A stretch of DNA of 22,134 nt from Sphingomonas bacterium (GTDB lineage Bacteria > Pseudomonadota > Alphaproteobacteria > Sphingomonadales > Sphingomonadaceae): contig NZ_CAHJWX010000004.1 of NCBI RefSeq assembly GCF_903643065.1, forward strand, positions 1 through 22,134, given 5' to 3'. The notes under the pieces were generated by a model, which did no database searches, was not told the DNA's origin, and saw only the letters and a program-made list of their open reading frames with translations. Of the stretch, positions 4,299 to 20,664 are shown piece after piece. A program made the position numbers and the translations under genes. Numbering within the stretch: the first letter of the stretch is position 1; each line of letters opens with the position of its first letter.

Positions 4299-4429
4299 CG
4301 TTCGTTCATTCTAAGATTCAGCCTAATTCGTCAGGGTTGACCGGAGCGGCTTTGTGTTGGGCGTTGGCCATTCCCGACGATTGGCGCAGCCAGGCGACTC
4401 CGCTACGGCTCTCCGACGAGGAGGTTGAA

Positions 4430-6418
4430 ATGCCGTCGCTTGCCGGAGACATCATCAATCGCGTGCGCCGACTGCCCAAGCCGACGGGCGCGGCCGAGGC
4501 CCTGCAGCCGCTCTTCGAAGCGGTGAGCAACGGTATGCACGCGGTCGACGACGCCGGTGAGCGCCCGTCCGGCATCGGCCGTATCGACATCGACATCACG
4601 CTCGCGGCGTCGCCTGGCGAGCACGAGTTTGTCGTCGCCGATACGGGTGTCGGTCTGGACAATGTTCGGTTCGGAGCCTTCCTGACGACGGACACCGATT
4701 TTAAGAGCAACCGGGGCGGCAAGGGCATTGGGCGGCTGCTGTGGCTGGACGCCTTCAACGCGGTGACCGTCACCAGCACCTACCGTGAGGACGGCAAGCT
4801 GTACCGGCGCCACTTCAAGTTCGCACTCGCTCGCGATGAGCAGATTCAGCAGCACGCGATCGAGGAACTGGCGTCCGGATCGGCGCAGATCGGCACCACG
4901 ATCCGTTTCCGTGGCCTCAGAGGAACTGCCTACCAATCCAAGTTTCCAACCCGGGCCGACACGATCATCCGGCACTTCGGCTCGCACTTCCTCGCCGAGT
5001 TCATTCTCGGCCAATCGCCGCCCGTGACCGTGACGATCGGCGAGCGATCCGTCGCCTTCCCGGGCGCGATCCGGGACCTGCTGGTTGAGGAGCGGGGCGG
5101 CTCGGACATAGCGACCGATGAATTCGGCAACCTGCATGTCGACCACTTCATCTTTAATAAGGCCGCCAGTGCTGACTTCGACGGCAATCACCAGCTGCAC
5201 CTCATCGCCAACGGCCGCACCGTGTCGACGCGCAAGATTGACGGACTGATCGGCCTTGGGCGCTTCGGCGACGACGGCCAATCCGTCTATCACGGCTGCG
5301 TCACGGGCGAGTTCCTGGACGAGCGCGTCAATCAGGAACGCACGAACTTCAACTTTAATGAAGACGTCGCCGACCAGATCACCAAAGTCTGTTCGCGAGC
5401 GGTGTCGGAGCAGGCGATCGGCACCGAGGTGGCGGCATTCGATGCCACACGGCTAGAGACCATGCATTCGTTCCTCAGCGAATATCCCTCCTTCGGCTTC
5501 GCCGCGCCTAGCGAGCTGCTGGAGCGGACGCCGCGCAACGCGGTCAAGGCGGAGCAGTTCGCGGCCGCGCTGATCCCGACGCGGATACGCCGAGACGTCG
5601 ATCGCAACCGTCGCGTTCAGGACGTCGTCGCCAAGCTCGGCTCGGGCGAGGCGCTTTCGGGCAACTTCGCCGAGCTGGTCCGCGCGGCCGCGGACGACGT
5701 GAAGGCCGAGGAGCAGCGGCAGCTGACGGAATACGTGTTGCGCCGCAAGCTGGTCCTGAACGTCATGGACCTGCTCATCGCCCGAGTGCGGGAGGTTGAC
5801 GGAATGCGAGACGCCTTTCACCTGGAAGAGACGCTGCACCAGTTCATCTGCCCGATGCGGGTCAGGGGCGACGATCCGGCGCGCATCGAGGTGTCGGACC
5901 ACGATCTGTGGGTCGTCGACGAGCGGCTTACCTTCGCAAAGTATTTCGCGTCGGACGTCCCCGTCTCTCAACTGGTGGCCGACGTGACCAGCACCGAGCG
6001 GCCCGACGTCCTCGTCTGGGATCGGCTACACGGCCTTGGCATGGACGGTGACGAGCCGCTGAAACGCGTGATGCTGATCGAGTTCAAGAAGCCGGGCCGG
6101 CGCGATTACGACGAGCGCTACTCGCCGATGAATCAAGTTTCGCGCTATCTCACCCAGCTCGTGAACGGCGAGATTGAGGGACTGAACCGGCAACGGGTTC
6201 GGCTGGCGGCCGACTGCGTCTTCTATTGCTACGTCGTAGCCGATATCGTCGGCAATCTGGACGTCCATACGTCGGCCTGGAAGACCACCGCCGACGGTCG
6301 CGGCCGCTGGACCGAGCTCAGCGGCCGATTTCGTGGCTCGATCGAGATCATAGAATGGGCGGACTTGGTGAAGGATGCGCGCGCGCGGAATGCGGCGTTC
6401 ATCGAACTTGCACGTTGA
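4430..6418 (+). CDS. GHKL (Bergerat) ATPase fused to PD-(D/E)XK-like nuclease domain
   Basis: The ATG at 4430 has a strong GAGGAGG at 4418-4424, giving 662 residues; an upstream TTG at 4337 lacks this support. The N-terminal third shows the Bergerat ATP fold: E30-A-V-S-N34 (N box), D71-T-G-V-G75 (G1 box) and N94-R-G-G-K-G-I-G-R102 (lid/G2). These are the motifs of Hsp90, MutL and MORC-type ATPases. Near the C-terminus, R-P-D526-V-L-V-W, then E551-F-K553 and a downstream Q569 give the D...E-x-K pattern of restriction-endonuclease-fold nucleases. ATP-driven conformational change controlling DNA cleavage is the natural reading, and proteins of this build occur in defence neighbourhoods. The activity is inferred, and I know no established name for this exact fusion. 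It stands alone on the plus strand, about 400 bases before the FAD/GAF pair. Confidence 0.8.
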   Translation: MPSLAGDIINRVRRLPKPTGAAEALQPLFEAVSNGMHAVDDAGERPSGIGRIDIDITLAASPGEHEFVVADTGVGLDNVRFGAFLTTDTDFKSNRGGKGIGRLLWLDAFNAVTVTSTYREDGKLYRRHFKFALARDEQIQQHAIEELASGSAQIGTTIRFRGLRGTAYQSKFPTRADTIIRHFGSHFLAEFILGQSPPVTVTIGERSVAFPGAIRDLLVEERGGSDIATDEFGNLHVDHFIFNKAASADFDGNHQLHLIANGRTVSTRKIDGLIGLGRFGDDGQSVYHGCVTGEFLDERVNQERTNFNFNEDVADQITKVCSRAVSEQAIGTEVAAFDATRLETMHSFLSEYPSFGFAAPSELLERTPRNAVKAEQFAAALIPTRIRRDVDRNRRVQDVVAKLGSGEALSGNFAELVRAAADDVKAEEQRQLTEYVLRRKLVLNVMDLLIARVREVDGMRDAFHLEETLHQFICPMRVRGDDPARIEVSDHDLWVVDERLTFAKYFASDVPVSQLVADVTSTERPDVLVWDRLHGLGMDGDEPLKRVMLIEFKKPGRRDYDERYSPMNQVSRYLTQLVNGEIEGLNRQRVRLAADCVFYCYVVADIVGNLDVHTSAWKTTADGRGRWTELSGRFRGSIEIIEWADLVKDARARNAAFIELAR

Positions 6419-6819
6419 ACCGGTGCTCGAACGACGTCTTGAGTCGAGCCACGTTGGACCCGGCGTATGGCTGTGCCCCTCGACGAGCCCGGCGAGCGGG
6501 GTCGTCCTACTCGGCCGATTGTCGCCGCTGCGAAGCTGGCCGACAGCGGAAGCGAGGATAGTGCGCCGGTCGCGAAAAGCACCGCTGGACGGCTCTCGAT
6601 CCGTGCCGCTCATTTCCGATGTAGTCCTGCGTCTCCATACGCGAGCGGGTGTCGCCAAGGCCTGAACGGGTGCGAACGTGATTGCGATCGAGCCGATCAA
6701 GTGATTTGTGGGCGTGGCGTGGACGGGCGGTCGCCGCAGTCGGGAAAGCGGTTCCTGGGATGTCGTCCCCAGCCGCGCGAGAGGCGGGACAGGACCGCCG
6801 GCAACCCCTACCAGAAGGG
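6419..6819. other. Non-coding gap of about 400 bases
   Basis: Several short frames cross this stretch on both strands, but they are Arg/Ser/Pro-rich, have no ribosome binding site and look like high-GC noise. It probably holds the promoter of the FAD/GAF gene pair, although no convincing -35/-10 pair was found. The frame of the next gene stays open back to 6682, so part of this gap could be coding if an upstream start (TTG 6682 or ATG 6760) is used. Confidence 0.4.
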
Positions 6820-8184
6820 ATGCGCATCAATCAGTATTCCTTGACGAGTCGCGCCGAAGCCGAGCGGATTGAGCAGGAGTACTGGATCACGGACGGACTT
6901 TACCTGCTGGGGAGCGTCGCGCAGGGGCTGACCGTTTTCGATCAGCAGGTGCGGGCCCACAACCTCGCCTGGGCGCTCTGGCGTCTTCTGGAGGGCGACG
7001 GGCCCGACAGCGCCCTGCGCGTCGCGATAATCGGCGGCGGCATCGCGGGCCTGACCGTCGCCGCGTGCCTCCTGGCCCGGTCGCGAGGTTTTCACATCAC
7101 GCTGTTCGAGGAGCGCTGGGACCTGTGCCCGCTCCAGCAGGGGTCGGACACCCGGTGGGTCCATCCGCACATCTATCGTTGGCCGGAACACGGCAGCCGC
7201 GCTCCCGACGCGGGTCTGCCCGTGCTGAACTGGACTGAAGGACGGGCGTCCGACGTGGCGCGAGACATCCTCGAGGGCTTCGGCCGATACGCCGACGAGT
7301 ACGGCACCGACAGGCTGGATCTGGTCCTCGGCCTGAGCCACCTACGCATCGACGCGACCGACAGGTCGATCGAATGGATGGGCCGTTCCGGGATTAGGAG
7401 CGGGCCCCATGTCCGCGCGGGCGACGCGGACGGCGCTCGCCGGCCGTTCGACGTCATGGTGCTCGCCACCGGCTTCGGTCTTGAGGAGGGCGTGGCGGAC
7501 GCCGCGGGAGCTAGTTCCTACTGGCGCAACGACCGACTGGGGCAGCCCCAACTGGGCGGCGACAGGCGGACTTACGTGATCTCGGGCCTGGGCGACGGCG
7601 CTCTCGTCGACCTGTGTCGCCTGACCATCGAGCGCTTTCGCCAGGATACCATTCTGTACGAGCTGTTCGAGGATGGGCTCGAGGCGTTCGAGGACGATCT
7701 GCGAACCCTCCTGGACGACGATTTCGGGCGCACGAGACGCAACGTGCATGATCTGTTCGAGCGCGACCTCCCCCTTTCGGCATCGGCGGCGTTAGATCTT
7801 GCCCGGGAACGGCTCCGCGGCCGCTTGCGCAAGGACACCCATGTCGTCCTGCACGCGAGGGGACGCGACAACAACAAATCCATTCGCGACCTGTTCGACG
7901 GACATAGCTCCTTCCTGAACAGAATGCTCCTCTACCTGCTGTACCGATGCGGCGGGTTCGTACTGTCCCTGCGCGAACTGGCGGCGACCACTGCGGAGTT
8001 CGCTGTGCCGCCGGAGAGGGTAGTCGTCCGGCACGGTGCCAGCACGATCGCCTCGATCAACGCGTTGTTCAGCGATCCGCTGGTGATCTCGGAACCGGTG
8101 CAGAGGATTAAGGACGACAAGCTGCAGGCGGCACGACGTGGTTGGCCGCTGGGCGCCTTCCCGAGCCTGGAGGTCGGCGCGTGA
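6820..8184 (+). CDS. Rossmann-type FAD/NAD(P)-binding protein
   Basis: About 454 residues from the ATG at 6820. That start has AGAAGGG directly against it; ATG 6760 and TTG 6682 in the same frame are alternatives, but their extra residues are low-complexity. After an N-terminal helical region of about 65 residues comes the dinucleotide-binding motif I71-G-G-G-I-A-G77. An acidic FEER at about 96-99 sits where the ribose of FAD is bound. VLATGFG (214-220) and a GLGDGA loop (about 256-261) match the later flavoprotein motifs. The roughly 150-residue C-terminal region is mostly helical and matches nothing I know. It could be an oxidoreductase, or a nucleotide-sensing or nucleotide-consuming protein. 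The substrate is unknown. The last codons overlap the start of the next gene (GTGA), so the two products are probably made together and may act together. Confidence 0.7.
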   Translation: MRINQYSLTSRAEAERIEQEYWITDGLYLLGSVAQGLTVFDQQVRAHNLAWALWRLLEGDGPDSALRVAIIGGGIAGLTVAACLLARSRGFHITLFEERWDLCPLQQGSDTRWVHPHIYRWPEHGSRAPDAGLPVLNWTEGRASDVARDILEGFGRYADEYGTDRLDLVLGLSHLRIDATDRSIEWMGRSGIRSGPHVRAGDADGARRPFDVMVLATGFGLEEGVADAAGASSYWRNDRLGQPQLGGDRRTYVISGLGDGALVDLCRLTIERFRQDTILYELFEDGLEAFEDDLRTLLDDDFGRTRRNVHDLFERDLPLSASAALDLARERLRGRLRKDTHVVLHARGRDNNKSIRDLFDGHSSFLNRMLLYLLYRCGGFVLSLRELAATTAEFAVPPERVVVRHGASTIASINALFSDPLVISEPVQRIKDDKLQAARRGWPLGAFPSLEVGA

Positions 8185-8885
8185 CCGCCAAACCGCTCCG
8201 GTACGAGCATCCCGAACCCGTTCCGCCGCCGTCGCAACTGGTTGCCCTGCCGTTCGTCTCGTCGGTCGCCGGCTACCTAGACGTCACCGTGGGCTGCAGC
8301 AGCGTGCGCGTGACGATCCACCGCGTGATGACTCGTGACGGACACGCCTATCTTCAGCAAATCTGCAGCTACGCGGGTGGTAACTTGGATCATTCCAGGG
8401 CGGGTCGGCTCTTTGTCGTCGACGAGGGCATCATCGGTGCGGCCTTTTCGGGGCGGACCATCATGCGGACTCGACGGTATGGCGACGAAGCCGAATGGTG
8501 GACCGACTACCGGGCGGATCGCATAGCGGTCGGCGACAAGCGCCCAGCACCGGCGGAGCCGATCTCCTATCTGGCGGTGCCGTTTCTCGATGCGACCGGC
8601 GATGCGGTGGTGTGCGTCATGTACGCGGAGGCGGGTGGTTTGAACCGCTTCGTCGAGGCCGGTGGACACCTCGATGCGGTGCTGGGGATGAGCGCTGGCT
8701 ACTGTCGCATGCTCGACGGCATGAGCGACCGCCCGCTCCCGCGTGTTCGCAACTACCCGTTGCCGGCGGGCAGACCCGTCGGGGGACCGTCCACGCTCTA
8801 TCCCAACCTACAGGAGCCCGTGCGCGACCGGAAGCCGCCGCGCCTGACCCGTCTGACCTCGTTTAACTTCGCGCTGTCCGCGTGA
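8181..8885 (+). CDS. GAF-like domain protein
   Basis: The GTG at 8181 forms a GTGA overlap with the preceding stop codon and has GGAGG at 8169-8173, giving 234 residues; the frame is open further upstream but without this support. The central part (about residues 30-165) looks like a GAF sensor domain. A leading strand/helix region is followed by DEGIIGAAFSGRTI (81-94), a variable loop with WW, and the paired strands YLAVPFLD (130-137) and DAVVCVMYAE (141-150). GAF domains bind small ligands such as cyclic nucleotides, nucleotides or haem. The last 60 residues are Pro/Arg-rich and probably disordered or partner-binding. No output domain is attached, so it may sense for, or regulate, the coupled FAD-binding protein. 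That role is inferred. Confidence 0.65.
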   Translation: MTAKPLRYEHPEPVPPPSQLVALPFVSSVAGYLDVTVGCSSVRVTIHRVMTRDGHAYLQQICSYAGGNLDHSRAGRLFVVDEGIIGAAFSGRTIMRTRRYGDEAEWWTDYRADRIAVGDKRPAPAEPISYLAVPFLDATGDAVVCVMYAEAGGLNRFVEAGGHLDAVLGMSAGYCRMLDGMSDRPLPRVRNYPLPAGRPVGGPSTLYPNLQEPVRDRKPPRLTRLTSFNFALSA

Positions 8886-8924: not shown

Positions 8925-9185
8925 TCAGCGGACGAAGTTGGGAGCGCCGTCCTTCGCTTCCCAGCTGAGATGGATCCAGCCCCACGGGATGTAGTGCGAG
9001 CGGCCCTCGGCGTCGAAGATCCGGTGGCCGCGGCTCTCGCTGACGTGGAGCTTAAGCGGCTGCTCGATCCGGATCGCGTCACCACCCGCGAACCTGTACT
9101 CGCGCCACCGCTCGCTCGATATGTCGGCGAACGAAAGGTCGCTCTCGTTTATGAAGGTCGGATCGGCCGCGAGGACGTGGGCCAT
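8925..9185 (-). CDS. Small hypothetical protein, 86 residues
   Basis: The ATG at 9185 has a GGAG ribosome binding site six bases upstream and a near-consensus promoter just before it, so the gene is very likely real. The product is soluble, rich in aromatic residues and His, and probably beta-rich: WREYRFAGG, then VSESRGHRIFD, then SHYIPWGWIHLSWEA. I do not recognise the family. It lies 106 bases downstream of the DptH-like gene on the same strand but has its own promoter. It could be a late member of the defence operon, an unrelated gene, or an inhibitor or regulator that needs constant expression. Confidence 0.7.
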   Translation of the reverse strand: MAHVLAADPTFINESDLSFADISSERWREYRFAGGDAIRIEQPLKLHVSESRGHRIFDAEGRSHYIPWGWIHLSWEAKDGAPNFVR

Positions 9186-9291: not shown

Positions 9292-12200
9292 TCAGGGCGA
9301 GGTTGACCCGGCGAGGGATGAGAGCGAGGCAACCTGGATCCGTCTCGCCCTGCTCGACGGGCGGTCGCGGTAGTAGCCGTCGCCGCGGCCGGCCAGATGC
9401 AGCAGGTTCTGAGCGTCCACCGAGACGTTGGGGGCGTTCCGCTTGGCCTCCTTCATGTCCATGGGCTTGAGCACGAGCCACGTCGCCGCGTTCGCCCGCA
9501 CCTCCTCGCTGAAGTGGTCGCTCATCTGCGAGGCCAAGACCATCCCGAGCCCGAACTTGCGCGCCTCGGTAATCAGCTCATTCAGGATGTTGTCGCTTCG
9601 GTCTCGGTCGCCGCCGCCCATGCTGAGGATCTTGGCCTCGTCGATTATGACGAACAGGCGGAAGCGCTGGTGGTCGTCGGCGGGTTGGACCGGGATGGGT
9701 CCGCGCAGCCGGAGCACGCGGAAGAGCTTGCGCAGCAGCGTCTCCGTCGCGACGAACCGGATGTCGTCGGGGAGCTTGCTGAGGTCCAGCCGCATCGACC
9801 GGGAGAGAAAGTCGTCCACGGAAACGTGCGCCGTCCGCCGGAAGATCGGGTGGTCGAAGAGTTGCTGGACGGCTGCTAGACAGCCCTCGATGGATGCGCG
9901 CTGACCCTTGCGGGCGTCGTCGTCGGCCCAGTGCCCCAGGATGTCCTGGACCACGCCGAAGGTCGGCGCGGGCCTGGTCCAGGTGCCCGGATCCTCGTCC
10001 TCGATGCCCGCCCGGGCGTAGGCCTCCTCGAACGCTTCGCGCAGGATCGCCGACTGGCGATGGCCCAGCGACGGCACGGCCCGCTGGATCATTGCACGGA
10101 GCGAGGCGCGCTGGTCGTAGAGGCCGCTCTCCTCGGCGCTGTGGGCGTCGATCTCCATCGGGTTCAGGCCGACCGTGCTTGCCGAGCCGCTGGACAGCAG
10201 CGTCGATTCTGTGCCGGGGAACGTCACGTCGCCGTGGAAGTCGAACGTGAGGACCGGCACGCCGAACTGGTGGATCGAGGCGCCAAGGACCTTGAGCGTC
10301 TCGGTCTTGCCCGACCCCGAGGCTCCCAGCACGAGCAGGAACCCGTTCGACTGGCGGCCGGGCGCCCATAGGACCGGTCGGCTCGACGCGTGCTCGGAGC
10401 CTAGCGGCACGTCCAGCAGTCCGGCGCTCGGATCGATCGGGATCTCCGGCATCTGTATGTCGGTCCCGGACGCGTCGACCAAGGAGGCGCCCGGGTCGGC
10501 GGGAGGGACCGCGTCGTCGGCGACGGCGGCGTCCGTCGCGGCTTCGGACGACGCCGCCGCATACGGGTCGGCGACGGCGGAATCGGCTTCTTCCACGGCT
10601 TCAGACTGCGATGGCTCCGCGCTCACGCGGCGGAGCATCTCGGGCGCGACCAGCGGCTCGGCCGGTGCGTCGCGGAGCCTGGCGGTCGTCGCCGGGATCT
10701 CGTCCTCGTCGATCCGGTCCCGCGTCGACCTGAGCACCAGCCCCACGTCGGCCGCCGAGAGGGTCTCGACCCTGATCGGGACGCCGCTCGCGGTCGTGAA
10801 CGCGCGGATGACGGTGTCCGCGACCGAGGCGAGCTGGACGTGCACGATGCGGGCGCCGAGGCGTACCGCGATCCGGCCCGCGAACGCGTCCTCCAGCAGG
10901 GCGTGCCAGCGTTCCACGAAGTCCGGCTCGTGATCCTTCAGGAGCGCGGTGTAGAGGTGCTCGCGAAGCACCTCGCGGCGTGGGTGCGCGAGCGGCGACG
11001 TGGTCTCCGCGCTGAACACCTCCGCCAGCGCCTGCAGCGTCGCGAGCACCTGGCCGACGGCGCGCCCGGTGATCACCCCGTCGTTGACGGTGTATGGGAT
11101 CGCCTCGTCGTGCGCCTTGACCTCGAGCACGTCGATGACGAGGCCGCCGTCCTCCTCCCGCAGGCCGAGCAGGTCGGCCTTCTCCTTGGAGTGGTGTCCG
11201 GCGACCAGCCAGCGGGCGGCGGCCGGCGTGTCGAGGCTGACGGACAGGCCGCTCGGCTGCTGGAGGCGGTACCAGCGCATGGCGATCAACTTGCCGAGCG
11301 ATCCCTTGACCTGCTTCTCGTGGCTTGAGCTCGCCAGCCCCAGGATGCCGTTGGGCTCCATCGCGACGAGATCGCGCGCGAGCCGCTCGAGCGTCTCCGT
11401 GCTCGCGAGGAAGTGGGTCCGTCGCAACTGCTCGTCGAGCCGCGCGATGAAGGGCGACAGGTCGTGGGCGAAGGTGGTTATCTGTCGGCTGCGGTCGATG
11501 CGACGGTCGATCACCTCCGCGCCGCCGAGGCGCGGGAGCGGCACGCGATGCGGGTCGGCGAGGACGGTCCACGTCGCGTGCTCGGCGATCGCGTCTAGGC
11601 TCTCCTTCACGTCGCGCACTTGCGGGATGTAGGCTGGGGTCTTCCTCTGGAGCGCGGTGTGGAGGAGCGATGCGGCGGCGAGATAGCCGCCGAAGACGTG
11701 CTCCTCGGCGACCGGCACGACCTGTATCTCCTTGCGGATCCGGTTGAACCGGTATTCGCAGGTGGGCATCCACGGGCTGAGGTCGTGAACCCCGGCCCTG
11801 GCCACGGGCGTGCTGCGCACCTCGAAGGGATCGAAGACGACGGCCAGATGCGCGGGTTCGCCGGCGAGCTCGCGCTGGAGATCGGCGGGGGCCATGATGT
11901 CGGGCGTGATGCTCAGGGAGACCAGTCCCCGCTCCTCGCCTCGCCTCAGCGCCTCGCGGACCACCTCGTTGAGATCGCCGATCTCGTTGGCCCAGCCCCG
12001 CGTGTCGGGATGGGTGTACCTCACGCGGACGTGCAGGCCCCAGTAGCCGGCGACGCCCATGTCCTGGTCGGCCTCCAACCCGTTCAGGAGCGCCTCGACG
12101 AACTTCGTCGGGCGGGGCGGATCCACGAGCAGGACCTGCAGGCCGGCGCGGGCGAACGGGCGGAGCATGGCGAGCCGGTGTGCGACGTCCGCGATGGTGC

Positions 12201-13977
12201 GCACCCCGTCCGGCTCCAGCAGGCCGCGCGGTGCCGCCTTGAACAGCGGCAGCCGCCCGATGGTACCCGCCTGTCCGAGCATTACCGACTGCGCCAGACC
12301 CGTCGTGTGCTGCGGCAGCACCACGATCTGCAGAAGCTGGATCTCGTCGGCGCACGCCTCCTCGACGGTTTGAGCCTCTCGCTCGGACAGGCTCCGGGAC
12401 AGCCCGCGGACGTCGCGCACGATGGTCGCGCTGCGCCAGAGGTACAGCGGGTGGAGCGGCGACATGATCGCCTCCACCGAGTCCTCGCGCCGATAGATGT
12501 AAAGCTCCAGCGCCAGTAGGCCGCTCAGCACGGCTTCCGCCTCGTAGTCGGCGGCGGCGATCATCTCCTGGTAGCAGGCCGACGCGAGCCGAAGCAGTTC
12601 CTCGTAGCTGGCCAGGTACCGCTCGAGCGTCTCCTGGAGGGCCGGCTTGCCCGCGAGGAAGGCGATGGGGGAGATGGCTAGCTCGGACGCGAACGGGAGC
12701 ATTGCCGCGCGCAGGTCGCGCAGGCGCTCGACCTCGGTGACGAGACCGGTCGGCACGATCTCCTCCGCCGCGAAGTCGCGGAGCTGCTTGAGCACGGGTT
12801 CGATGCGCGACGGCGTCCAGCTCTTGAAGGCGGCGATCTCGAGCAGGGCGTCCGGCTTCTCGCTTTCGACCTCGATCAGGCCGCCCCAGTCCTCGGCGGT
12901 GGACCGGGACCGCACCAGGTTCAGGAGGTCGCGGTTGGTTTCGACGACGCTGGCGGCGGTGGCTGATCCGGCCCGCTTCACGTCTTGGTCGGAGATGCGC
13001 ACCTCGTCGTCCAGCGCGGCGGTAGCGATCTGGCTGATTTCGTCGGCGACGTCGGCAAGCTCGTCGTCCCGCCCCTCCATCAGGAGGCGACTCACGGCGC
13101 GTTCGACCTCCTCGCGCGGAGTACCGCCGACACCGGCCTTCGAGCCCGGCTTGATCTTCGCCCGCCAGAGCGTGCCCGCCTCTTCAAGGTCGAGCCCGGA
13201 GAAGTCGCCGTCCTTGGCCGCCTGCCGCATGACGCGCGCCAGCCTCGCCGCGGCGGCGCGTTCGACTCCCTCCAGCCGCCGCCCGTGATCGCGCAGGCGG
13301 GTCCAGTCCTCGTTCGTCGAGCGCTTGAGCTGGTCGACGAAGTCCCGGTTCGCCAGCAGCCGGCGAAGCACCCGCTGGTCGGTCTTCTCGTCCGCGAGAC
13401 GTCCGTCTGGGAGCAGGCCCAGGAAGTGCAGACGACGGGGCGCGAACACCGATCGTTCGATCGGCAGAATGCCCGCGAGCTCGTCCGCGAAGCGGACCAT
13501 GTCGCGAAGCGAGATGCGCAGGCGCGGGTTGCGGCCGAGCACGTCCCAGAGCGTTCGCAGCCAGGCGACCTCCGCCTGCCCCGCCTCTCCCGCGCAGAGC
13601 CTTCGCACCAAGTCCGCCTCCCGGACGTCGCGGAAGTCGCGCAGCGATGCGGCCTTGGAGAGCGGGCGTTCCGCGACGACCGCGATCGTGCGCAGCCGCT
13701 CGTTGCGCCACTTGACCGCGTCCTCCTCCCGCGAGGAGACGAGTGCGCCTCCGGCTCCCCCGGCCGTCGCCCTCGCGACCGCGTCGGCCTGGTCGATCAA
13801 CGCCAGCCTGAGATGCGGTCCGCGCTTGGAGGCGATCGGCCCGGCGGCGGATGCCAAGACGTCGTAGTCGAGCGGCTTCACGTCCCGGACCACGACGCCG
13901 AACTCGCCGCGCTCCGCGGCGTCCTTCAGTTCCTGGACGAGCACCGAGCTGATGCGGGCGGCGACGGGGTCAGACAT
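9292..13977 (-). CDS. DptH-like protein: HerA/FtsK-type ATPase with internal nuclease-like motif
   Basis: A 1,561-residue protein, third gene of the operon; its ATG overlaps the end of gene 2 by 8 bases. The C-terminal 370 residues are a HerA/FtsK-superfamily motor: Walker A G1218-A-S-G-S-G-K-T1225, a conserved LTFDFHGD strand just after it, Walker B F-V-I-I-D1446-E1447, a VLASQ sensor strand near 1476, and Arg residues close to the end. In the middle, D935-L-L-G-L, then L-E952-V-K954, fits the D...E-x-K core of PD-(D/E)XK nucleases. An Ala/Asp/Ser/Pro-rich linker (about 1113-1182) joins the two halves. The N-terminal 900 residues are helical and unrecognised. Size, motor and gene order match DptH, the largest subunit of the DptFGH restriction complex of phosphorothioation systems. 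It probably moves along or cuts foreign DNA. Homology to DptH itself is inferred; the ATPase motifs are clear. Confidence 0.78.
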   Translation of the reverse strand: MSDPVAARISSVLVQELKDAAERGEFGVVVRDVKPLDYDVLASAAGPIASKRGPHLRLALIDQADAVARATAGGAGGALVSSREEDAVKWRNERLRTIAVVAERPLSKAASLRDFRDVREADLVRRLCAGEAGQAEVAWLRTLWDVLGRNPRLRISLRDMVRFADELAGILPIERSVFAPRRLHFLGLLPDGRLADEKTDQRVLRRLLANRDFVDQLKRSTNEDWTRLRDHGRRLEGVERAAAARLARVMRQAAKDGDFSGLDLEEAGTLWRAKIKPGSKAGVGGTPREEVERAVSRLLMEGRDDELADVADEISQIATAALDDEVRISDQDVKRAGSATAASVVETNRDLLNLVRSRSTAEDWGGLIEVESEKPDALLEIAAFKSWTPSRIEPVLKQLRDFAAEEIVPTGLVTEVERLRDLRAAMLPFASELAISPIAFLAGKPALQETLERYLASYEELLRLASACYQEMIAAADYEAEAVLSGLLALELYIYRREDSVEAIMSPLHPLYLWRSATIVRDVRGLSRSLSEREAQTVEEACADEIQLLQIVVLPQHTTGLAQSVMLGQAGTIGRLPLFKAAPRGLLEPDGVRTIADVAHRLAMLRPFARAGLQVLLVDPPRPTKFVEALLNGLEADQDMGVAGYWGLHVRVRYTHPDTRGWANEIGDLNEVVREALRRGEERGLVSLSITPDIMAPADLQRELAGEPAHLAVVFDPFEVRSTPVARAGVHDLSPWMPTCEYRFNRIRKEIQVVPVAEEHVFGGYLAAASLLHTALQRKTPAYIPQVRDVKESLDAIAEHATWTVLADPHRVPLPRLGGAEVIDRRIDRSRQITTFAHDLSPFIARLDEQLRRTHFLASTETLERLARDLVAMEPNGILGLASSSHEKQVKGSLGKLIAMRWYRLQQPSGLSVSLDTPAAARWLVAGHHSKEKADLLGLREEDGGLVIDVLEVKAHDEAIPYTVNDGVITGRAVGQVLATLQALAEVFSAETTSPLAHPRREVLREHLYTALLKDHEPDFVERWHALLEDAFAGRIAVRLGARIVHVQLASVADTVIRAFTTASGVPIRVETLSAADVGLVLRSTRDRIDEDEIPATTARLRDAPAEPLVAPEMLRRVSAEPSQSEAVEEADSAVADPYAAASSEAATDAAVADDAVPPADPGASLVDASGTDIQMPEIPIDPSAGLLDVPLGSEHASSRPVLWAPGRQSNGFLLVLGASGSGKTETLKVLGASIHQFGVPVLTFDFHGDVTFPGTESTLLSSGSASTVGLNPMEIDAHSAEESGLYDQRASLRAMIQRAVPSLGHRQSAILREAFEEAYARAGIEDEDPGTWTRPAPTFGVVQDILGHWADDDARKGQRASIEGCLAAVQQLFDHPIFRRTAHVSVDDFLSRSMRLDLSKLPDDIRFVATETLLRKLFRVLRLRGPIPVQPADDHQRFRLFVIIDEAKILSMGGGDRDRSDNILNELITEARKFGLGMVLASQMSDHFSEEVRANAATWLVLKPMDMKEAKRNAPNVSVDAQNLLHLAGRGDGYYRDRPSSRARRIQVASLSSLAGSTSP

Positions 13978-15463
13978 GCTGCTGGTCGTCCATCATGCCC
14001 ACGACCGCCACACTGTCCGCCAGCCGGCGTGCTAGGCCGAGGGCCTCCAACCGGGACAGCAACCTCTCGCTGTTCTCGGCCAGGCTCGCGCTGTCCACCT
14101 CAGCGCCGGCGGCGGCGAGCAGCGCACCGTCCTCCGGCCGGCCGCCGACGACGATCGACCAGCGGTCGTGAAGGGCATCGAGGAAGTCGCGGTATTCGAG
14201 CTGCCGCCCTGCGGCGTCGAAGGTGCTGACGGCAAGCACCTCGAGCGTCCGGTCGGCCGGCACGAGCCGCTTGTTCGGGTTCTTCTGCTGGGGATAGAGG
14301 AGGCCGCAGCGCACGCCGAACAGGCGCAGGAAGCCGTCGAGGCTGCGGCCGCTCGCCCCGTCGACCCGCTCGACCAGTTGCCTCGGAAGCTCGTCGGCCA
14401 TGCTCCCGCCGGCGTCCGAGATCTCCCCGATCACCTCCGCCAGCACCTTCATGCTCATGGAGCCGCCCTTCTTAGCGGCCTTGTTCCTGGCCAGTTCGGC
14501 GAGCGCGTCGCTCGGCTCCTCGGCCCAACCGCTCCGGGTCTCCGTCAGCAGATCGGACAGGACGTCGGCCATGTACCCGCGACCATCCTCCATCAGCCGC
14601 GTGACCAGGAGCTCGCTCGCCGCGGCGACGGGCGAGAGCCTGGTCCCGCTCGCGTCCAGCAGGAGGATGCGCCGCGGATACTGGGCCCATTCGGCCGCGC
14701 GGGTGCTCGCATGGAAGAAGACGCTGATCGAGGCGAGCGTGACGATGCGCTGGAGGCTGGCGATGGGGTTGGGCCGCGCGTGCCGCTCGTAGGTGCCGAG
14801 ATCGGCCGCCGCGGAGCGCAGGACCTCCGCGATGGCGGAGCTTCCGTTGCCGGCGAGATCCTCGAAGCGCCATTCGATCGGCTTGCGCTCGCGCACGTCG
14901 TCGGCCAGCGGCGCGAGCACGGCGGTCAGGTCGTCGACCGTCGCGAGGTCGCGACCGGGTGCGCTGGTGTCGCGCAGCAGGTCGAGCAGGTGGAGGCGTT
15001 CCCCGGTCGCGCCCGTGCCCGACCACAGCCGATGCACGAATTCGCCCGCGTGGTCGTCGGACGGATCGCCCGTGACCGTCAGCGCGGTGGGCGAGGAGAA
15101 GGAGGATTGGTCGGGCGAGGTGCCGAAGGCGGCGGCGTCGGTCGCCAGGATCGTGCGCAGCAGCGGGAGCACCTTCGTCACCAGGGTGGAGCGCCGCAGA
15201 TCCCGTTCCTCGCCGAGGCGGCCCCAGCGGTCGCGGCTCGCGTCGAGCATCTGCTGGGCGGCGGCGAGACGGGTTTCGGACGACTCCTTGGACGCGGTCG
15301 CCGTCATCAGCATCTTGAGGTCGGACATGCGCCCGACGGTGCCGTGCTCGGCCCTCATGAGCGCGTTTGCGACGTGGACGGGCTTGAGCTTGCCTTCCAT
15401 CATGCCGACGCCGTGCCGCCTTCGCAGCTCCCGTCCGATCACCTCGTGGAGGAATCCTTCCAT
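13970..15463 (-). CDS. Middle subunit of DptFGH-like operon (DptG position)
   Basis: A 497-residue protein between the two ATPase genes. I chose the ATG at 15463 because TAGGA, which includes the stop codon of gene 1, gives a ribosome binding site at the right spacing. The frame is open much further upstream, but only inside gene 1. The product is mainly helical and soluble, with one more hydrophobic stretch in IASLQRIVTLASISVFFHAS (about residues 231-250) followed by the strand RRILLLDASG. There is no Walker motif, metal site or other catalytic signature. Its size and its place between a DptF-like and a DptH-like gene suggest the DptG role, a structural or bridging subunit of a restriction complex. 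This rests on context; I cannot see a sequence signature. It overlaps gene 3 by 8 bases, so the two are probably translationally coupled. Confidence 0.62.
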   Translation of the reverse strand: MEGFLHEVIGRELRRRHGVGMMEGKLKPVHVANALMRAEHGTVGRMSDLKMLMTATASKESSETRLAAAQQMLDASRDRWGRLGEERDLRRSTLVTKVLPLLRTILATDAAAFGTSPDQSSFSSPTALTVTGDPSDDHAGEFVHRLWSGTGATGERLHLLDLLRDTSAPGRDLATVDDLTAVLAPLADDVRERKPIEWRFEDLAGNGSSAIAEVLRSAAADLGTYERHARPNPIASLQRIVTLASISVFFHASTRAAEWAQYPRRILLLDASGTRLSPVAAASELLVTRLMEDGRGYMADVLSDLLTETRSGWAEEPSDALAELARNKAAKKGGSMSMKVLAEVIGEISDAGGSMADELPRQLVERVDGASGRSLDGFLRLFGVRCGLLYPQQKNPNKRLVPADRTLEVLAVSTFDAAGRQLEYRDFLDALHDRWSIVVGGRPEDGALLAAAGAEVDSASLAENSERLLSRLEALGLARRLADSVAVVGMMDDQQHV

Positions 15464-15471
15464 CGTCGTTC

Positions 15472-18400
15472 CTACTCGGCGCTGTCGTAGCGGCGCTGCG
15501 CCAGGTCGACGCGAACCCGCACCTGGAGATCGGATTCGGGATCGAGCATCTCGATCGTGCGCACGTGCGATCCGGCCTCGGCGTGCTGGGCCAGCGAGTC
15601 GTTGAACCGACCGAGCCGGCGCTGGAGATCGTCCGCCGCATCCGCCGCCCCGGCCGACATGAGATGGAGAAGCAGCCGTCGGTCGACCACGAGGTTGGCG
15701 AAGCGCACGTTCTCCGGCGGCGCGAACAGGAGATGGTCGGCGGCCTGGTTCTCGAACGCGGCCCTGAGCGCGGGTGCCAGCCTGGGCTTGAGGAGGGTCA
15801 GGCGCAGGTTCGACACCGTGCGGCCCGACACCATAGCCCGACCCTGCGCGCGCGGGGAGTAGGCCAGGCGCGTCCAGAGGCGCAGATGATCCTGCTGGTT
15901 CCTGTCGGCCTTGTTCCACCAGCCGTTGATGAGCGCGATGAGCCGCCCCGCCCTGAGCTGGCTGCTGAGCGTGGCGTCTTGGAAGCTTGCGAACGCGCGG
16001 TCGGCTTGCGTGGCGTAGCGCAGCCGTCCTTCCGGATGCTCGAAGTACCATCGCCGCTTCAATGCGGTGAAGGCGTCGGTGGCGCGGGCCTCGTCGTGAC
16101 GGCGCATGTCGTCGAGATCCCGCTTCGGTACCGGCGCCAGCTCGTGGCCCGAGAACGCCTCCGGCTCGTAGCGCCCGCGCCACAGGTCCTCGTCGACCCG
16201 CGGCTCGGTCTGCCTCACCGGATCGAGGCCGCCTGCGATCTGCTCGAAGATTGCGCCATTGCCCTCGAATGCGAGCCAGGAATAGTGCGAGGAGTCCGAC
16301 GGACCCTCCGCGACCAGGTCGGCGCAGCGCTTCCCGCCGAAGATGAGGTAGGACACGAAGCCGAGCGCCTCACGAAACGTCGCGCGCAGGCCGCGCTCGC
16401 CGACCCTTTCCAGCAGTTCGACCGTACGCGCCTTCACGCGCTCCGTCCGCAGCATCGTGCGATTCACATGGACTGGGCAGGAGGCGAGCTGCGGGCATCC
16501 CTCGCAGTTCTCGTACCAGACGTCCTCGGTCAGCTTGTCAATGACGCGGCCGACGAGTTCGGGGGCGAGTGTGCGCCGCAGGCTGAGGTCGATCACGATT
16601 GTGGCGCCGGGCTGCGGCGTGAACCTCTCGTCCACCATTTGGTCGACCGGCACGTAGGCGACCATGCCGAGCAGTTGCTGGTTGACCTCGGCCAGCCACG
16701 GCGCCCGTTGCGACTGCTGGCGGATCAGCTCGATCAGCGGGCCTTCGTTGATCGCGATGCAGAACGGCGCCTTGTCGTCCCTCGCCTCGGTCCATGCCGC
16801 GACGATCTCTTCGTGCGACACGGCGCTCGCGTCCACGATCACGCGGGCGTTCGCCGCCTTGAGGTCGCTCTCGAGCAGCCGGATGGTGTGGGTCTTGCCG
16901 TCGCCCGCGTTGCCGGTGATCACGACCGAACCGCCGGCGCGGACGATGCGCCGCACCACGTCGTCCACCCGGGTCCGGACGTTGAGCTCGCGCAGCCGGC
17001 CTATTCTGACGTGGTCGCTGTATGCGCTCTCGTCGCGGTAGAGCTGCCTCACGAACGCCAACTTCTCGTCTTCCACGACCGACGCCATCGGGCGCGTCTC
17101 CCGTCTAGCCAGTTGCAGCAGATCCGGTTGCGCCGAGGCGGCGCGTTCCGGGATGAGGCGTGATACGCGTTCCCTGATCGGCGAGGACGATCCGACCGAG
17201 GCGAGCGCGGGCGTATGGGCGAGCCGGCTCGAAAGCCAGCGCTTGCGCCAGAATGCGACGATCCGTTCCTCGGCCTCCGGTCCGTCGGGCACGCGGAAGT
17301 CGGCTTCGCGATCGACGCCGAGAAGTAGCCGCGTCGAGTTCTTGGCGAGGTCGACGCCATAGACGATCCTACGCGTGCCGTGGTTCAGCACGTTCGAGCG
17401 GCTGAGGCCCAGGGCCGCGAACCCCTCGCGCAACTGCCGAAGCTTGGGACTCTGGCCCTCCCCGAATACGAAGTTCACGTTGCGGTAGCTGCGCTCGCGA
17501 TCGGCCAAGGCCTCGAGCGCGGCCTCTGTCTCGGCGCTGAGGTTCGGCGATCCATAGCCCTCCGAAGAGCCGAGCTCCTCGTACTCGGCGCCGACCTCCT
17601 GTCCGTCGCATGTTCCCGCGGGAAGCCGCACGCGGTTGTACTGCGACGATCGCCCCGGGTAGAGGCTGGACGTGCCCAGGAAGGTCAGCAGCGGAACCTT
17701 GGTCACGGGCCTGCCGGCCATCTGGCTCGCGATTATGCTGTAGGTGTCGGCATAGCGTTCGGCGTAGTCGCGCCGGACCCGCGGGCTGAGCATCAGCAGG
17801 CACGCCAGCTTGCCGCCGAGCAGGTGGTTATAGGGCGGCACGGCTCCGCACACGGTGATCTCCATCATGCTCGTCGCGGAGAACCGCTTCTTAAGCTGTC
17901 GGAGCGCCAGGTTGATCGCCCTTACGCCCTCTTCGGTCTCGAAGAGCGACGCTACCGAGTCGGTTGCGCTGATCGCCTCGTGGATGCCGAGCAGGGTCCG
18001 CACGGTCCGGGCGCGCTTCGCTCGGAACAAGGGCGAACGGGCGAGTTGCTCGAGGTCGACGCCGACCACGTCGTGGACGCGGGCGGTCACCGCGTCGTCC
18101 TCATCGACGTCTCGCAGGCGATCGGTCCGATCGTCGGACGCCTGCTTGTCGATCACGGCGAGCCGGTCGAGCATGTCGCGAGTCACGTGGTCGGGCAGCT
18201 CGGGCGGTACGGGTAGGTCCTGCAGGAAGATCTCGGAATAGTCCTCCCGGATCCTGGCGCGCAACGCCGCCAGCACTTCGCCGTCCGCGACCCGGCCGTC
18301 GGCGATCGCTCGCTTCAGCCCGTCGACGGTCCAGCCGATGGCGTCGTCCCGCGGCCCAAGTTGCATGACCGCGTTGCCCAGCGCGGTTATGCCCATGACC

Positions 18401-19107
18401 GGATGTCCGGGCCGCGCGGAGTCCCGGATCAGGTAGAAGAGGTTCCGGCCGGGCGAGCTGCGGTACCTGGTGGCCCAGGTGTGTCGGAAGTAGCGCCACA
18501 CGTCCATAAGGCGCAGCCCCGTATGGTCGTCCCTGGCGTCGGCGGTCACCGGCTGGAGGTAGGGGCGGCAGGCCCGGGCGAGCGCCTCGTCGCGGGCGGT
18601 GCCCTCCATTTCGGCGGCGATGCGCAGGTCGGCTTCCAGCTTGCGGCCGTCGGCGATCAGGTCCGTGACCGGTCGGGTGCCGGACCCGCGACCAGGGCGT
18701 TCGAGCGCGAGGATGAACTTGCGGGTCGACGGCTCGGCCAACTGGTCGTCGCGACCGAATTCGAGCTGCCGGCGCGCGCTGTCTTTCGAGAGCGGCCCGG
18801 GCGCCCCCGGCCGCACATAGAGCCAGCCTCCGCTCGCCATCGTCTGCCACCCGAGCGAGATCAGGTCGCGCAGAACGAGCGTCGATGCGATCAGCCGCAG
18901 GCCGCCCGGAGCCGCCGGGTCGAGGCGTGCGAGCAGGTCGTCCAGGCCGGTCAGCGCGTCGGGCGAGGACCTGGAACCGACCTCCATCAGGCGTGCGTAG
19001 GCCATCCCTTTGTCATCGAGTTTCGGTGAGAAAAGTCGCCAATTTCCCGTACGGACATCCTCAGACACCGCTTCTGCGTGCCTCTTGGCCTCTAATCTCA
19101 GTAGCAC
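15472..19107 (-). CDS. Fusion of DruA-like (DUF4338) domain with DptF-like P-loop ATPase
   Basis: First gene of the operon, 1,211 residues from the GTG at 19107; an ATG at 19005 would remove 34 residues that look authentic. Residues 1 to about 630 resemble the DUF4338/DruA family of the Druantia anti-phage system: LIRDSARPGHPV and DDAIGW (about 225-260), C420-G-A-V-P-P-Y-N-H-L-L-G-G-K-L434, SIIASQMAGRP (about 457-467) and SSQYN (487-491). Residues from about 670 to the end form an ATPase: Walker A G732-N-A-G-D-G-K-T739, the strand FCIAINEGPL, and a Cys cluster C868-x2-C871-x5-C877 likely to bind zinc, as I recall for DptF proteins. DptF is the small ATPase of the phosphorothioation-dependent DptFGH restriction complex. 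The fusion suggests that the DruA part supplies recognition or DNA/RNA processing while the ATPase joins the complex. The fusion and motifs are seen; the role is inferred. Confidence 0.82.
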   Translation of the reverse strand: MLLRLEAKRHAEAVSEDVRTGNWRLFSPKLDDKGMAYARLMEVGSRSSPDALTGLDDLLARLDPAAPGGLRLIASTLVLRDLISLGWQTMASGGWLYVRPGAPGPLSKDSARRQLEFGRDDQLAEPSTRKFILALERPGRGSGTRPVTDLIADGRKLEADLRIAAEMEGTARDEALARACRPYLQPVTADARDDHTGLRLMDVWRYFRHTWATRYRSSPGRNLFYLIRDSARPGHPVMGITALGNAVMQLGPRDDAIGWTVDGLKRAIADGRVADGEVLAALRARIREDYSEIFLQDLPVPPELPDHVTRDMLDRLAVIDKQASDDRTDRLRDVDEDDAVTARVHDVVGVDLEQLARSPLFRAKRARTVRTLLGIHEAISATDSVASLFETEEGVRAINLALRQLKKRFSATSMMEITVCGAVPPYNHLLGGKLACLLMLSPRVRRDYAERYADTYSIIASQMAGRPVTKVPLLTFLGTSSLYPGRSSQYNRVRLPAGTCDGQEVGAEYEELGSSEGYGSPNLSAETEAALEALADRERSYRNVNFVFGEGQSPKLRQLREGFAALGLSRSNVLNHGTRRIVYGVDLAKNSTRLLLGVDREADFRVPDGPEAEERIVAFWRKRWLSSRLAHTPALASVGSSSPIRERVSRLIPERAASAQPDLLQLARRETRPMASVVEDEKLAFVRQLYRDESAYSDHVRIGRLRELNVRTRVDDVVRRIVRAGGSVVITGNAGDGKTHTIRLLESDLKAANARVIVDASAVSHEEIVAAWTEARDDKAPFCIAINEGPLIELIRQQSQRAPWLAEVNQQLLGMVAYVPVDQMVDERFTPQPGATIVIDLSLRRTLAPELVGRVIDKLTEDVWYENCEGCPQLASCPVHVNRTMLRTERVKARTVELLERVGERGLRATFREALGFVSYLIFGGKRCADLVAEGPSDSSHYSWLAFEGNGAIFEQIAGGLDPVRQTEPRVDEDLWRGRYEPEAFSGHELAPVPKRDLDDMRRHDEARATDAFTALKRRWYFEHPEGRLRYATQADRAFASFQDATLSSQLRAGRLIALINGWWNKADRNQQDHLRLWTRLAYSPRAQGRAMVSGRTVSNLRLTLLKPRLAPALRAAFENQAADHLLFAPPENVRFANLVVDRRLLLHLMSAGAADAADDLQRRLGRFNDSLAQHAEAGSHVRTIEMLDPESDLQVRVRVDLAQRRYDSAE

Positions 19108-19737: not shown

Positions 19738-20664
19738 TTGCTCGACGAGCTGAAAGCCGCTCGACTGTCAGCTGGTTGGTCGCAACGCACCTTGGCGGAG
19801 CGGATCGGCGTCGACGCCCAGACGATCAAGCGGCTGGAGAACGGGGTAGGGTCGATATCGAACTTGGCCGCAGTGATGACGGCGCTCGACTTCCGCCTGA
19901 CGGGGGTGGCGCCGGGCGTAACACTGCCCGCCCAACTCGGTGCCCGTCGTCGCAGCTTGTCCTTGTCGCTCGATCAGGTCGCGTCTCGCACGGGCCTGTC
20001 GCGTGCGACGATTGCCAGCTTGGAGCGCGGAGGCGGGTCGGTCGCCAGCTTGCTTCGCCTGCTGGCAGTGATCGCGCCGAATGCTCGCCGCCGCGCGCCA
20101 GAGCGTTCCTACTGGGGTCAGGGCGACAAGAACGATCGAGACAGCCGCTTCACTCCGCCCGACTTCCTCGCGAACATCTACGCCGCTTTCGGCGAGATCG
20201 ATCTCGACCCCTGCGCTCACCTGCTGAGCCCCGTGATCGCACATTGTCGCATTCTGCGGAGCGGGGGAGGCAACGGGCTCGTGGACGACTGGTCGGGACG
20301 GCTCGCCTTCGTCAATCCGCCCTTCTCCGAGTTGCTCAAGTGGCTGCGCCGGGCGCACGACCAGTGGCGCGCCGGCAAGGTCGAGACCGTCGTCTGCCTC
20401 GTGCCTGTCCGGACCGATTCCGCCTGGTTCCACGACGTGCTGAGCGCCGACGCCGACATCTACCTGCTGAAGGGCCGCGTCCGCTTCCTGGACTCGCAGG
20501 GCAAGGGGCAGCACACGCCGTTCTCGCTGATGCTGCTGACGCTCGGAGCGAGTGCCGAGCAGAAGGCCGGGTATGAGGCGCTGGTGCCCGGCTTCTGGCT
20601 GGTGCGTGGCACGACGCCGGCGGATCTGCCTTCGAACAGGATTGGCGAAGAGTCGGCCATGTAG
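19738..20664 (+). CDS. Double XRE-type HTH fused to phage-type Dam N6-adenine methyltransferase
   Basis: 308 residues from a TTG at 19738, the only start in this frame after an in-frame TGA at 19726. Residues 1-55 form an XRE-type helix-turn-helix (TLAERIGVDAQTIKRLENG). Residues 66-112 look like a second one (SLDQVASRTGLSRATIASLE). Residues 125-290 match the phage DNA N6-adenine methyltransferase family (PF05869): RFTPPDF, D155-L-D-P-C-A160 in the cofactor region, N193-P-P-F196 as the catalytic NPPF tetrad, and a late RVRFLDSQGKGQHTPFS. It would methylate adenine, and the HTH part may direct it to specific sites or repress its own promoter. It is divergent from the three-gene defence operon and could protect host DNA, control the operon, or be a phage or plasmid remnant. 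The start is odd: an ATG at 19715 in another frame begins MTPIEFIY and would join this frame with a one-base change. Confidence 0.78.
   Translation: MLDELKAARLSAGWSQRTLAERIGVDAQTIKRLENGVGSISNLAAVMTALDFRLTGVAPGVTLPAQLGARRRSLSLSLDQVASRTGLSRATIASLERGGGSVASLLRLLAVIAPNARRRAPERSYWGQGDKNDRDSRFTPPDFLANIYAAFGEIDLDPCAHLLSPVIAHCRILRSGGGNGLVDDWSGRLAFVNPPFSELLKWLRRAHDQWRAGKVETVVCLVPVRTDSAWFHDVLSADADIYLLKGRVRFLDSQGKGQHTPFSLMLLTLGASAEQKAGYEALVPGFWLVRGTTPADLPSNRIGEESAM

Follow-up and report, generated by a model that had tools for sequence, protein, structure and literature searches.

What a protein of one defence family does in the restriction machinery of another is the question raised by a single gene in a 22,134-nucleotide stretch of DNA from a Sphingomonas bacterium (contig NZ_CAHJWX010000004.1 of assembly GCF_903643065.1, positions 1–22,134; this whole stretch is the window referred to below). 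The gene encodes one chain that joins DruA, the hallmark protein of Druantia type I, to an ATPase of the DptF type. Its relatives show whole Druantia and DndFGH blocks mixed and swapped, which suggests that the two kinds of system have one working part in common.

The open reading frame (ORF) occupies positions 15472–19107 of the reverse strand, the strand of all features given below unless stated otherwise, and runs from a GTG start across 1211 amino acids without an internal stop. A first-pass annotation had proposed a DruA domain fused to a DptF-like ATPase on the strength of four motifs, all of which were located in the translation at the residues given there: NHLLGGKL (residues 427–434, 17806–17829), SSQYN (487–491, 17635–17649), GNAGDGKT (732–739, 16891–16914) and CEGCPQLASC (868–877, 16477–16506). 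Profile searches recovered both halves. The PADLOC profile DruA1 (PDLC00001, E 9.3e-140) aligned residues 37–651 (17155–18999) with its positions 28–661 of 675, almost from end to end, and Pfam DruA (PF14236) matched residues 414–596 (E 2.7e-29, 102.7 bits with a cut-off of 27). Residues 705–947 were matched by the SspF profiles PDLC02795 (E 7.6e-18) and PDLC02796 (1e-13), whereas the PADLOC DndF profile gave a weak match (E 0.057). The ATPase half is therefore nearer to SspF than to DptF/DndF, and the DptF-like assignment holds for its kind, with SspF as the closer relative.

In the structure model, residues about 48–99 (18811–18966) form helices followed by a beta hairpin, a unit that by eye appears winged-helix-like. 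The predicted GNAT-like core with a helical insert follows (about 177–608, 17284–18579), in which NHLLGGKL occupies the position of the GNAT pyrophosphate-binding loop. A low-confidence linker (about 657–678, 17074–17139; predicted local distance difference test below 50 at model residues 638–659) leads into the DptF/SspF-like half (15475–17073), composed, from profiles and model, of a P-loop NTPase, a helical lid and a C-terminal alpha+beta part. The Walker A motif GNAGDGKT is invariant in alignment A1 (n=45) but for G735, which is nearly so. Asn787, placed at the Walker B position within INEG (786–789, 16741–16752), is invariant in the 45-sequence alignment and also in an alignment of 90 sequences, where it is N768. 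The cysteine cluster of the lid, a probable Zn insert, has C868 invariant and C871 and C877 kept in at least 90% of the 45 sequences; once distant relatives join the alignment it is no longer among the conserved positions.

The fusion gene is followed by two further genes of the same module. The ATG of a DptG/SspG-like gene (13970–15463; SspG PDLC02799, E 3.6e-17 in a scan begun at 15490) lies 8 nucleotides past the fusion gene stop, and its end is overlapped by 8 nucleotides by the start of a DptH/DndH-like gene of 1561 amino acids (9292–13977; DndH PDLC02684, E 4.5e-26; mad8, 3.7e-19). In the DptH protein HerA_C and DUF87 exceed their Pfam cut-offs, and the Walker A of its HerA-type motor reads GASGSGKT (residues 1218–1225, 10303–10326). 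A PD-(D/E)xK-type motif, D935 to E952-V-K954 (11116–11175), is kept in 20 of the 20 near-complete DptH proteins aligned. By profiles and motifs the trio thus represents the F-, G- and H-type genes of a DndFGH/SspFGH restriction module. The first-pass annotation had assigned the ATPase to a phosphorothioation restriction cassette, a point to be amended; DndC, the one phosphorothioation gene that was searched, had no match in the genome of the window (72% complete, 486 contigs). A C-terminal DptH motor with a GVGKT/S Walker A was seen in L060, L066, L028, L019, L023 and L055 (L and G numbers are our labels for loci and genomes); in L060 and L028 it matches Pfam AAA and RuvB_N, outside the HerA/FtsK clades described for DndH.

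A sequencing or gene-calling error as the origin of the fusion is excluded by its homologues. A protein search gave 182 of them at E <= 1e-3, of which 120 were listed, with 114 of these spanning 90% or more of the fusion protein, in a list biased to full-length relatives by the choice of candidates on shared words and length. In a scan of genome contigs, from which the best 80 of 269 matching stretches were kept (78 loci), 25 intact fused loci were found, making 26 with the window; L055, cut by a contig end, and L012 were left aside. The latter (Nannocystis sp. RBIL2) carries the DruA-DptF operon in pieces with other ORFs interspersed. Downstream of the fusion DptG is present in 24 of the 26 and DptH in 25, so that the same two genes do follow it as a rule; L026 ends near a contig edge and L027 has no DptG match. 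The operon of DruA-DptF, DptG and DptH occurs in Proteobacteria, Verrucomicrobia, Acidobacteria, Lachnospiraceae, Bacteroidota and one cyanobacterium, and in Actinomycetota and haloarchaea with DruA and DptF as split genes. The fusion is both widespread and rare: 398 genomes from the phylum of the window gave 7 matches at E 1e-20, namely three fusions (the window's genome, G079 and G044, the last cut by a contig edge), one lone long DruA and three short DruA proteins.

The split relatives are a natural alternative arrangement, and not, as the first-pass annotation had allowed for, a sign of separate genes joined here by error. In the split form DruA (about 700 amino acids) adjoins DptF (about 540), followed by DptG and mostly by DptH. 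Both genes are whole in seven loci (L029, L056, L057, L059, L060, L062, L063) and partial or odd in three (L064, L065, L066); these ten have a DptG match in 9 and a DptH match in 7, with DptH on the opposite strand in L056. Five haloarchaeal plasmids have the identical split order, DptG and DptH being fragmented in one (L112). On a DruA tree of 61 rows, built without L012, L055, L064 and L065 (broken, cut or partial) and L066 (DruA cut), the fused state changes five times, four of them imposed by well supported branches; as read from this tree, fusion or splitting changed several times. Because the midpoint root falls on a very long branch (L057, L059), we do not assign a direction to any transfer between Druantia and DptFGH. 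As a separate observation, a single 977-amino-acid ORF of L065 (9161–12094) matches DptF and DptG, a DptF-DptG fusion instead of a DruA-DptF one. A second DptF-like ORF, divergent from DruA, was seen in L056 and L063 (by clustering) and in L064 (by direct match), and that of L056 has DptG- and DptH-like genes of its own.

Long DruA was found beside either of two ATPases, and these partners, DptF and the Druantia-type HATPase, exclude each other. Counting each place once with repeat fetches merged, and with the short DruA proteins of L104, L105, L106 and L110 outside the set, a partner ATPase is present in 77 of 81 long-DruA loci. The HATPase was seen in none of the 45 loci where DptF is the partner of long DruA, whereas the 36 loci without DptF have it in 32 cases, mostly directly upstream of DruA; in some loci the absence of either partner means little because the stretches are short (3.3 kb in L064), and L007/L011 and L052/L053 are near-copy pairs by DruA. 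Of the 32 HATPase loci, 24 had supplied the sequences for the HATPase profile, and the loci added after profile building agree in 8 of 8 cases (L092, L093, L109, L118–L121, L123). Neither partner was found in L016, L017, L018 and L034, of which L016 has DptG- and DptH-like matches and L017 lies near a contig edge. The window itself also encodes a 693-amino-acid GHKL-type ATPase with a weak Pfam match (4337–6418, forward strand). It was considered as a Druantia-type HATPase and rejected, as the HATPase profile does not match it even unfiltered.

The link between the two defence families put forward by the first-pass annotation was strengthened by operons that hold DruA, DptFGH and the helicase DruE together. 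DruE stands beside DruA-DptFGH in 6 of the 45 DptF loci, and in L066. In a Bryobacter metagenome-assembled genome (MAG; L028, L086) one strand carries the fused DruA-DptF, DptG, DptH, two genes, a DruB-like gene (E 1e-4), a gene of 697 amino acids without a profile match, DruD (DruD1, E 9e-26) and DruE (DruE1, E 0, residues 1–1817 of 1819). Two Rhodospirillales MAGs (L060 and L066, where the contig end cuts DruA) have DruA, DptF, DptG, DptH, DruE, a NERD-helicase gene and a small gene. Plasmids of Haloplanus sp. GDY1, Natrialbaceae AArc-T1-2 and Halalkaliarchaeum AArc-CO show DruA, DptF, DptG and DptH on the same strand and, on the opposite one, a gene of no known family, a DruD-like gene (E 1.4e-6) and DruE (E 0); in Natribaculum longum DruE is likewise beside the DruA/DptF genes. 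The profile scans of the haloarchaea were made on the Haloplanus proteins (L111, DruE1 E 0), the other haloarchaeal DruE (L114, L116, L117) being assigned by homology. No DruE was present in the stretches examined of Halobaculum litoreum (L112) and Hymenobacter canadensis (L113). Linkage to DruE was also considered as a rule for DruA-DptF loci and was rejected, being confined to a minority. DruE1 matches at E <= 1e-60 occur in 10 of the 36 genomes searched, linked to DruA-DptF in three (G024, G032, G035) and on a separate contig in G021; the remaining six are weaker (E 1e-61 to 1e-92), none of them seen inside a DruA-DptF locus.

A closer comparison of these composites with HATPase loci revealed an exchange of blocks. 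The DruE of the Rhodospirillales composite (L087) is 66–67% identical over its full length to those of Paracoccus versutus (L032) and Mesorhizobium sp. CA8 (L040), where HATPase precedes DruA and no DptFGH was seen, and its next genes also match those of L032 (68% and 50%), whereas the DruA proteins of L060 and L032 are only 32% identical. The Bryobacterales composite compares in the same manner with the HATPase-DruA locus of G559 (L119): DruE is 71% identical over 649 amino acids, the DruE of L119 being cut by the stretch end, with 42% for the DruB-like protein, 41% for the 697-amino-acid protein, 47% for DruD and 31% for DruA. Given such close DruE and distant DruA proteins, one kind of DruE block has either HATPase-DruA or, in its stead, DruA-DptFGH for a neighbour in two lineages. 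A quick DruE tree of 18 rows, supported by the Shimodaira–Hasegawa-like approximate likelihood ratio test only and with row L119 filling one third of the columns, needs three partner changes. No comparable pair was seen for the haloarchaea.

Part of this has a precedent. The first-pass annotation knew of no described system with this fusion; the text of Rakesh, Aravind and Krishnan 2024 (PMC10853773) already lists a GNAT "annotated as DUF4338 in Pfam" among the variable N-terminal fusions of DndF, and the fusion itself is therefore already published. The same text does not hold phosphorothioation genes essential to the DndFGH module. Its fusions resemble ours in placing DUF4338 before the DndF P-loop core, in the DndG and DndH companions, in the Asn at Walker B and, in some, in the Zn insert of the lid; they differ in the DndH motor, which is HerA/FtsK there and AAA+/RuvB-like in L060 and L028, RuvB having no match in the part of the paper covered. 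DruA and Druantia are absent from its main text (0 matches), and neither Druantia nor DUF4338 is found in the passages covered of a BREX paper (PMC12839542) with two authors from the Rakesh group. In the literature searched, which excludes figures and most subscription papers, no published account was found that identifies the domain as DruA or describes the split form, the mutual exclusion of the partners or the composites with DruE.

Other known systems share parts of this arrangement. Druantia type I has DruA over nearly the full length, and some relatives add DruB-like, DruD-like and DruE genes; the DruA of the window, however, has DptFGH as partners, and not HATPase or other Dru proteins. 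PADLOC scans of five window proteins gave no match to DruB, DruC or DruD. DruE is absent from the window, and PDLC00013 has no match at E <= 1e-60 in the available part of the genome; the window was therefore not filed as Druantia type I. The profiles of SspF, SspG and DndH match the three proteins of the window, as expected of SspFGH (with SspABCD) and DndFGH (with DndABCDE), the latter differing by the DndC that is unmatched here. In a comparison with MADS limited to mad7 and mad8, DptG matches MAD7 and DptH matches mad8, but DptG falls far below the MAD7 family cut-off (NF047733, E 2.2e-6, 27 bits with a cut-off of 410).

The fold and the conserved residues of DruA bear on its role. The structure model predicts the core as a GNAT acyltransferase fold, with Foldseek E values that are not significant. 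The acyl-CoA (coenzyme A) loop of GNAT proteins carries the signature R/Q-x-x-G-x-G/A. HLLGGK sits at the expected place of this loop and departs from that textbook sequence, and we equate NHLLGGKL, with its invariant G432 and K433, with the CoA loop only tentatively. A comparison of 67 DruA proteins (27 fused, 12 split, 24 Druantia-type and 4 short) at 44 positions found 18 identical in all 67: R205, W211, G220, R221, G421, P425, G432, K433, T479, Y490 (within SSQYN), R492, G513, G517, G551, H576, R580, R623 and W624. Two giant-virus proteins in BFVD also match the DruA core model, A0A3G4ZXG3 of Faunusvirus (E 5e-8) and A0A5K0UAJ3 of Yasminevirus (E 2e-7).

From these sequences we put at about even chances that DruA and DptF, here joined in a single chain, are subunits of a DruA-DptFGH restriction complex, and that DruA would be a portable, DNA-directed GNAT core shared with Druantia type I. 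The proposal draws on the nuclease motif and the HerA-type motor of DptH, the SspG-type DptG, the nucleotide-binding site of DptF and the GNAT-like core of DruA with its strictly conserved set of polar and basic residues. DruA is regarded as portable between Druantia type I and DndFGH-type systems because the DptF pair and the HATPase pair each stand beside the same DruE block. In such a complex DptG and DptH would find, pull and cut invader DNA, DptF would be its switch, controlled by nucleoside triphosphates, and DruA would be a DNA-directed GNAT enzyme that relies on its dedicated partner ATPase in order to act. The most likely step of DruA would be the transfer of an acyl group to DNA bases, serving either as a mark on self DNA or as a tag that singles out invader DNA for the complex. 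Mom of phage Mu, a GNAT-like protein, modifies adenine in DNA.

The literature covered does not state a role for DruA in Druantia type I, and two other roles were weighed against a DNA-directed enzyme. The GNAT half could be a back-up effector: should DptFGH restriction fail, it would acetylate host proteins or aminoacyl-tRNA and so kill the cell, with DptF sensing the invader and switching the effector on. We consider this unlikely: DruA is a separate gene in the 12 split loci aligned and is present in Druantia-type loci without DptF, as befits a core part and not an optional add-on, and the winged-helix-like N-terminus together with the conserved Arg/Trp set would point to nucleic acid as the target. 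It is about equally improbable, in our estimate, that the GNAT-like core is enzymatically dead and that DruA is a DNA- or invader-binding sensor signalling to its partner ATPase. Such a sensor would agree with the Foldseek values, with a classical CoA-loop signature that, as we read the sequence, is not clearly kept, and with a partner that is an ATPase in nearly all long-DruA loci; the 18 identical positions, many of them Arg, Lys, His, Tyr or Gly and shared from short DruA to the fusion, would be unusual in a mere binder.

If DruA does act as a DNA-directed enzyme, marking of self DNA is favoured because the nuclease motif of DptH is intact, most genomes have no DndC and no widely shared neighbour is a candidate methyltransferase. 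DndC matches over the cut-off were found in 5 of 36 DruA-DptF genomes and weaker ones in 2, with none in 29; among 7 comparison genomes with DptF and without DruA, one had a match over the cut-off and one a weaker match. Beyond DptFGH, clustering by BLASTP, which may miss distant relatives, gave no neighbour family common to over 4 of the 39 loci linked to DptF in the first scan. The eight representatives of shared families that were scanned comprise an integrase, an ABC transporter, a response regulator, a D5/primase, a VIT/VWA protein, SfsA, one with a weak match to SbcC and one without a match, and none is a methyltransferase. Self-marking is also in keeping with the statement of a review (PMC12904381, crediting Ojima et al. 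2024) that a phage protein promotes site-specific methylation and thereby evades type I Druantia. Against this, the same review, in the part covered, groups Druantia with DNA methylation, an argument against an acyl group as the mark, and PMC10853773 interprets the variable N-terminal domains of DndF as co-effectors, which speaks against self-marking. A wider proposal, which we hold as doubtful, is that DruA is a DNA base acyltransferase and that Druantia type I and DruA-DptFGH form one restriction superfamily, in which self and invader would be told apart by base acylation and not by methylation or phosphorothioation. The DptH nuclease would then spare acylated host DNA, and the same DruA mark would be read by DruE-type and DptFGH-type machines, so that the blocks would be swappable and combinable.

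The remaining neighbours in the window are varied. On the forward strand, 19738–20664 encodes one protein with two HTH_3 matches and a Dam domain (PF05869, E 1e-16); it was considered as a general self-marking methyltransferase and discarded, as tblastn finds it in no other locus examined. Also on the forward strand, a protein binding flavin adenine dinucleotide and related to the N-terminal part of LmuA (6682–8184; PDLC03858, E 1.2e-66) is overlapped by a gene of 247 amino acids (8142–8885), and the pair, which may be a defence cassette in its own right, is also present near DruA in L004, L014 and L046. Just past DptH, on the reverse strand, lies an ORF of 86 amino acids without a Pfam match (8925–9185), whose relatives lie behind DptH in L004 (76%) and, in L061 (57%), behind a DruA of the HATPase type. 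A phage-type integrase family is common to the DptF-linked loci L008, L009, L014 and L065 (the L009 protein was scanned); L009 also has a D5/primase gene, and some systems may therefore ride on mobile elements.

The finding is of good interest because the role of DruA becomes testable: should DruA be the core that Druantia shares with a DndFGH-type machine whose nuclease motif is intact, that role could be tested directly in a small complex. Self-marking by DruA would be one way for DndFGH-type nucleases to spare host DNA where phosphorothioation genes are missing. If the proposal is true, two separately classified defence families would become combinations of the same blocks.

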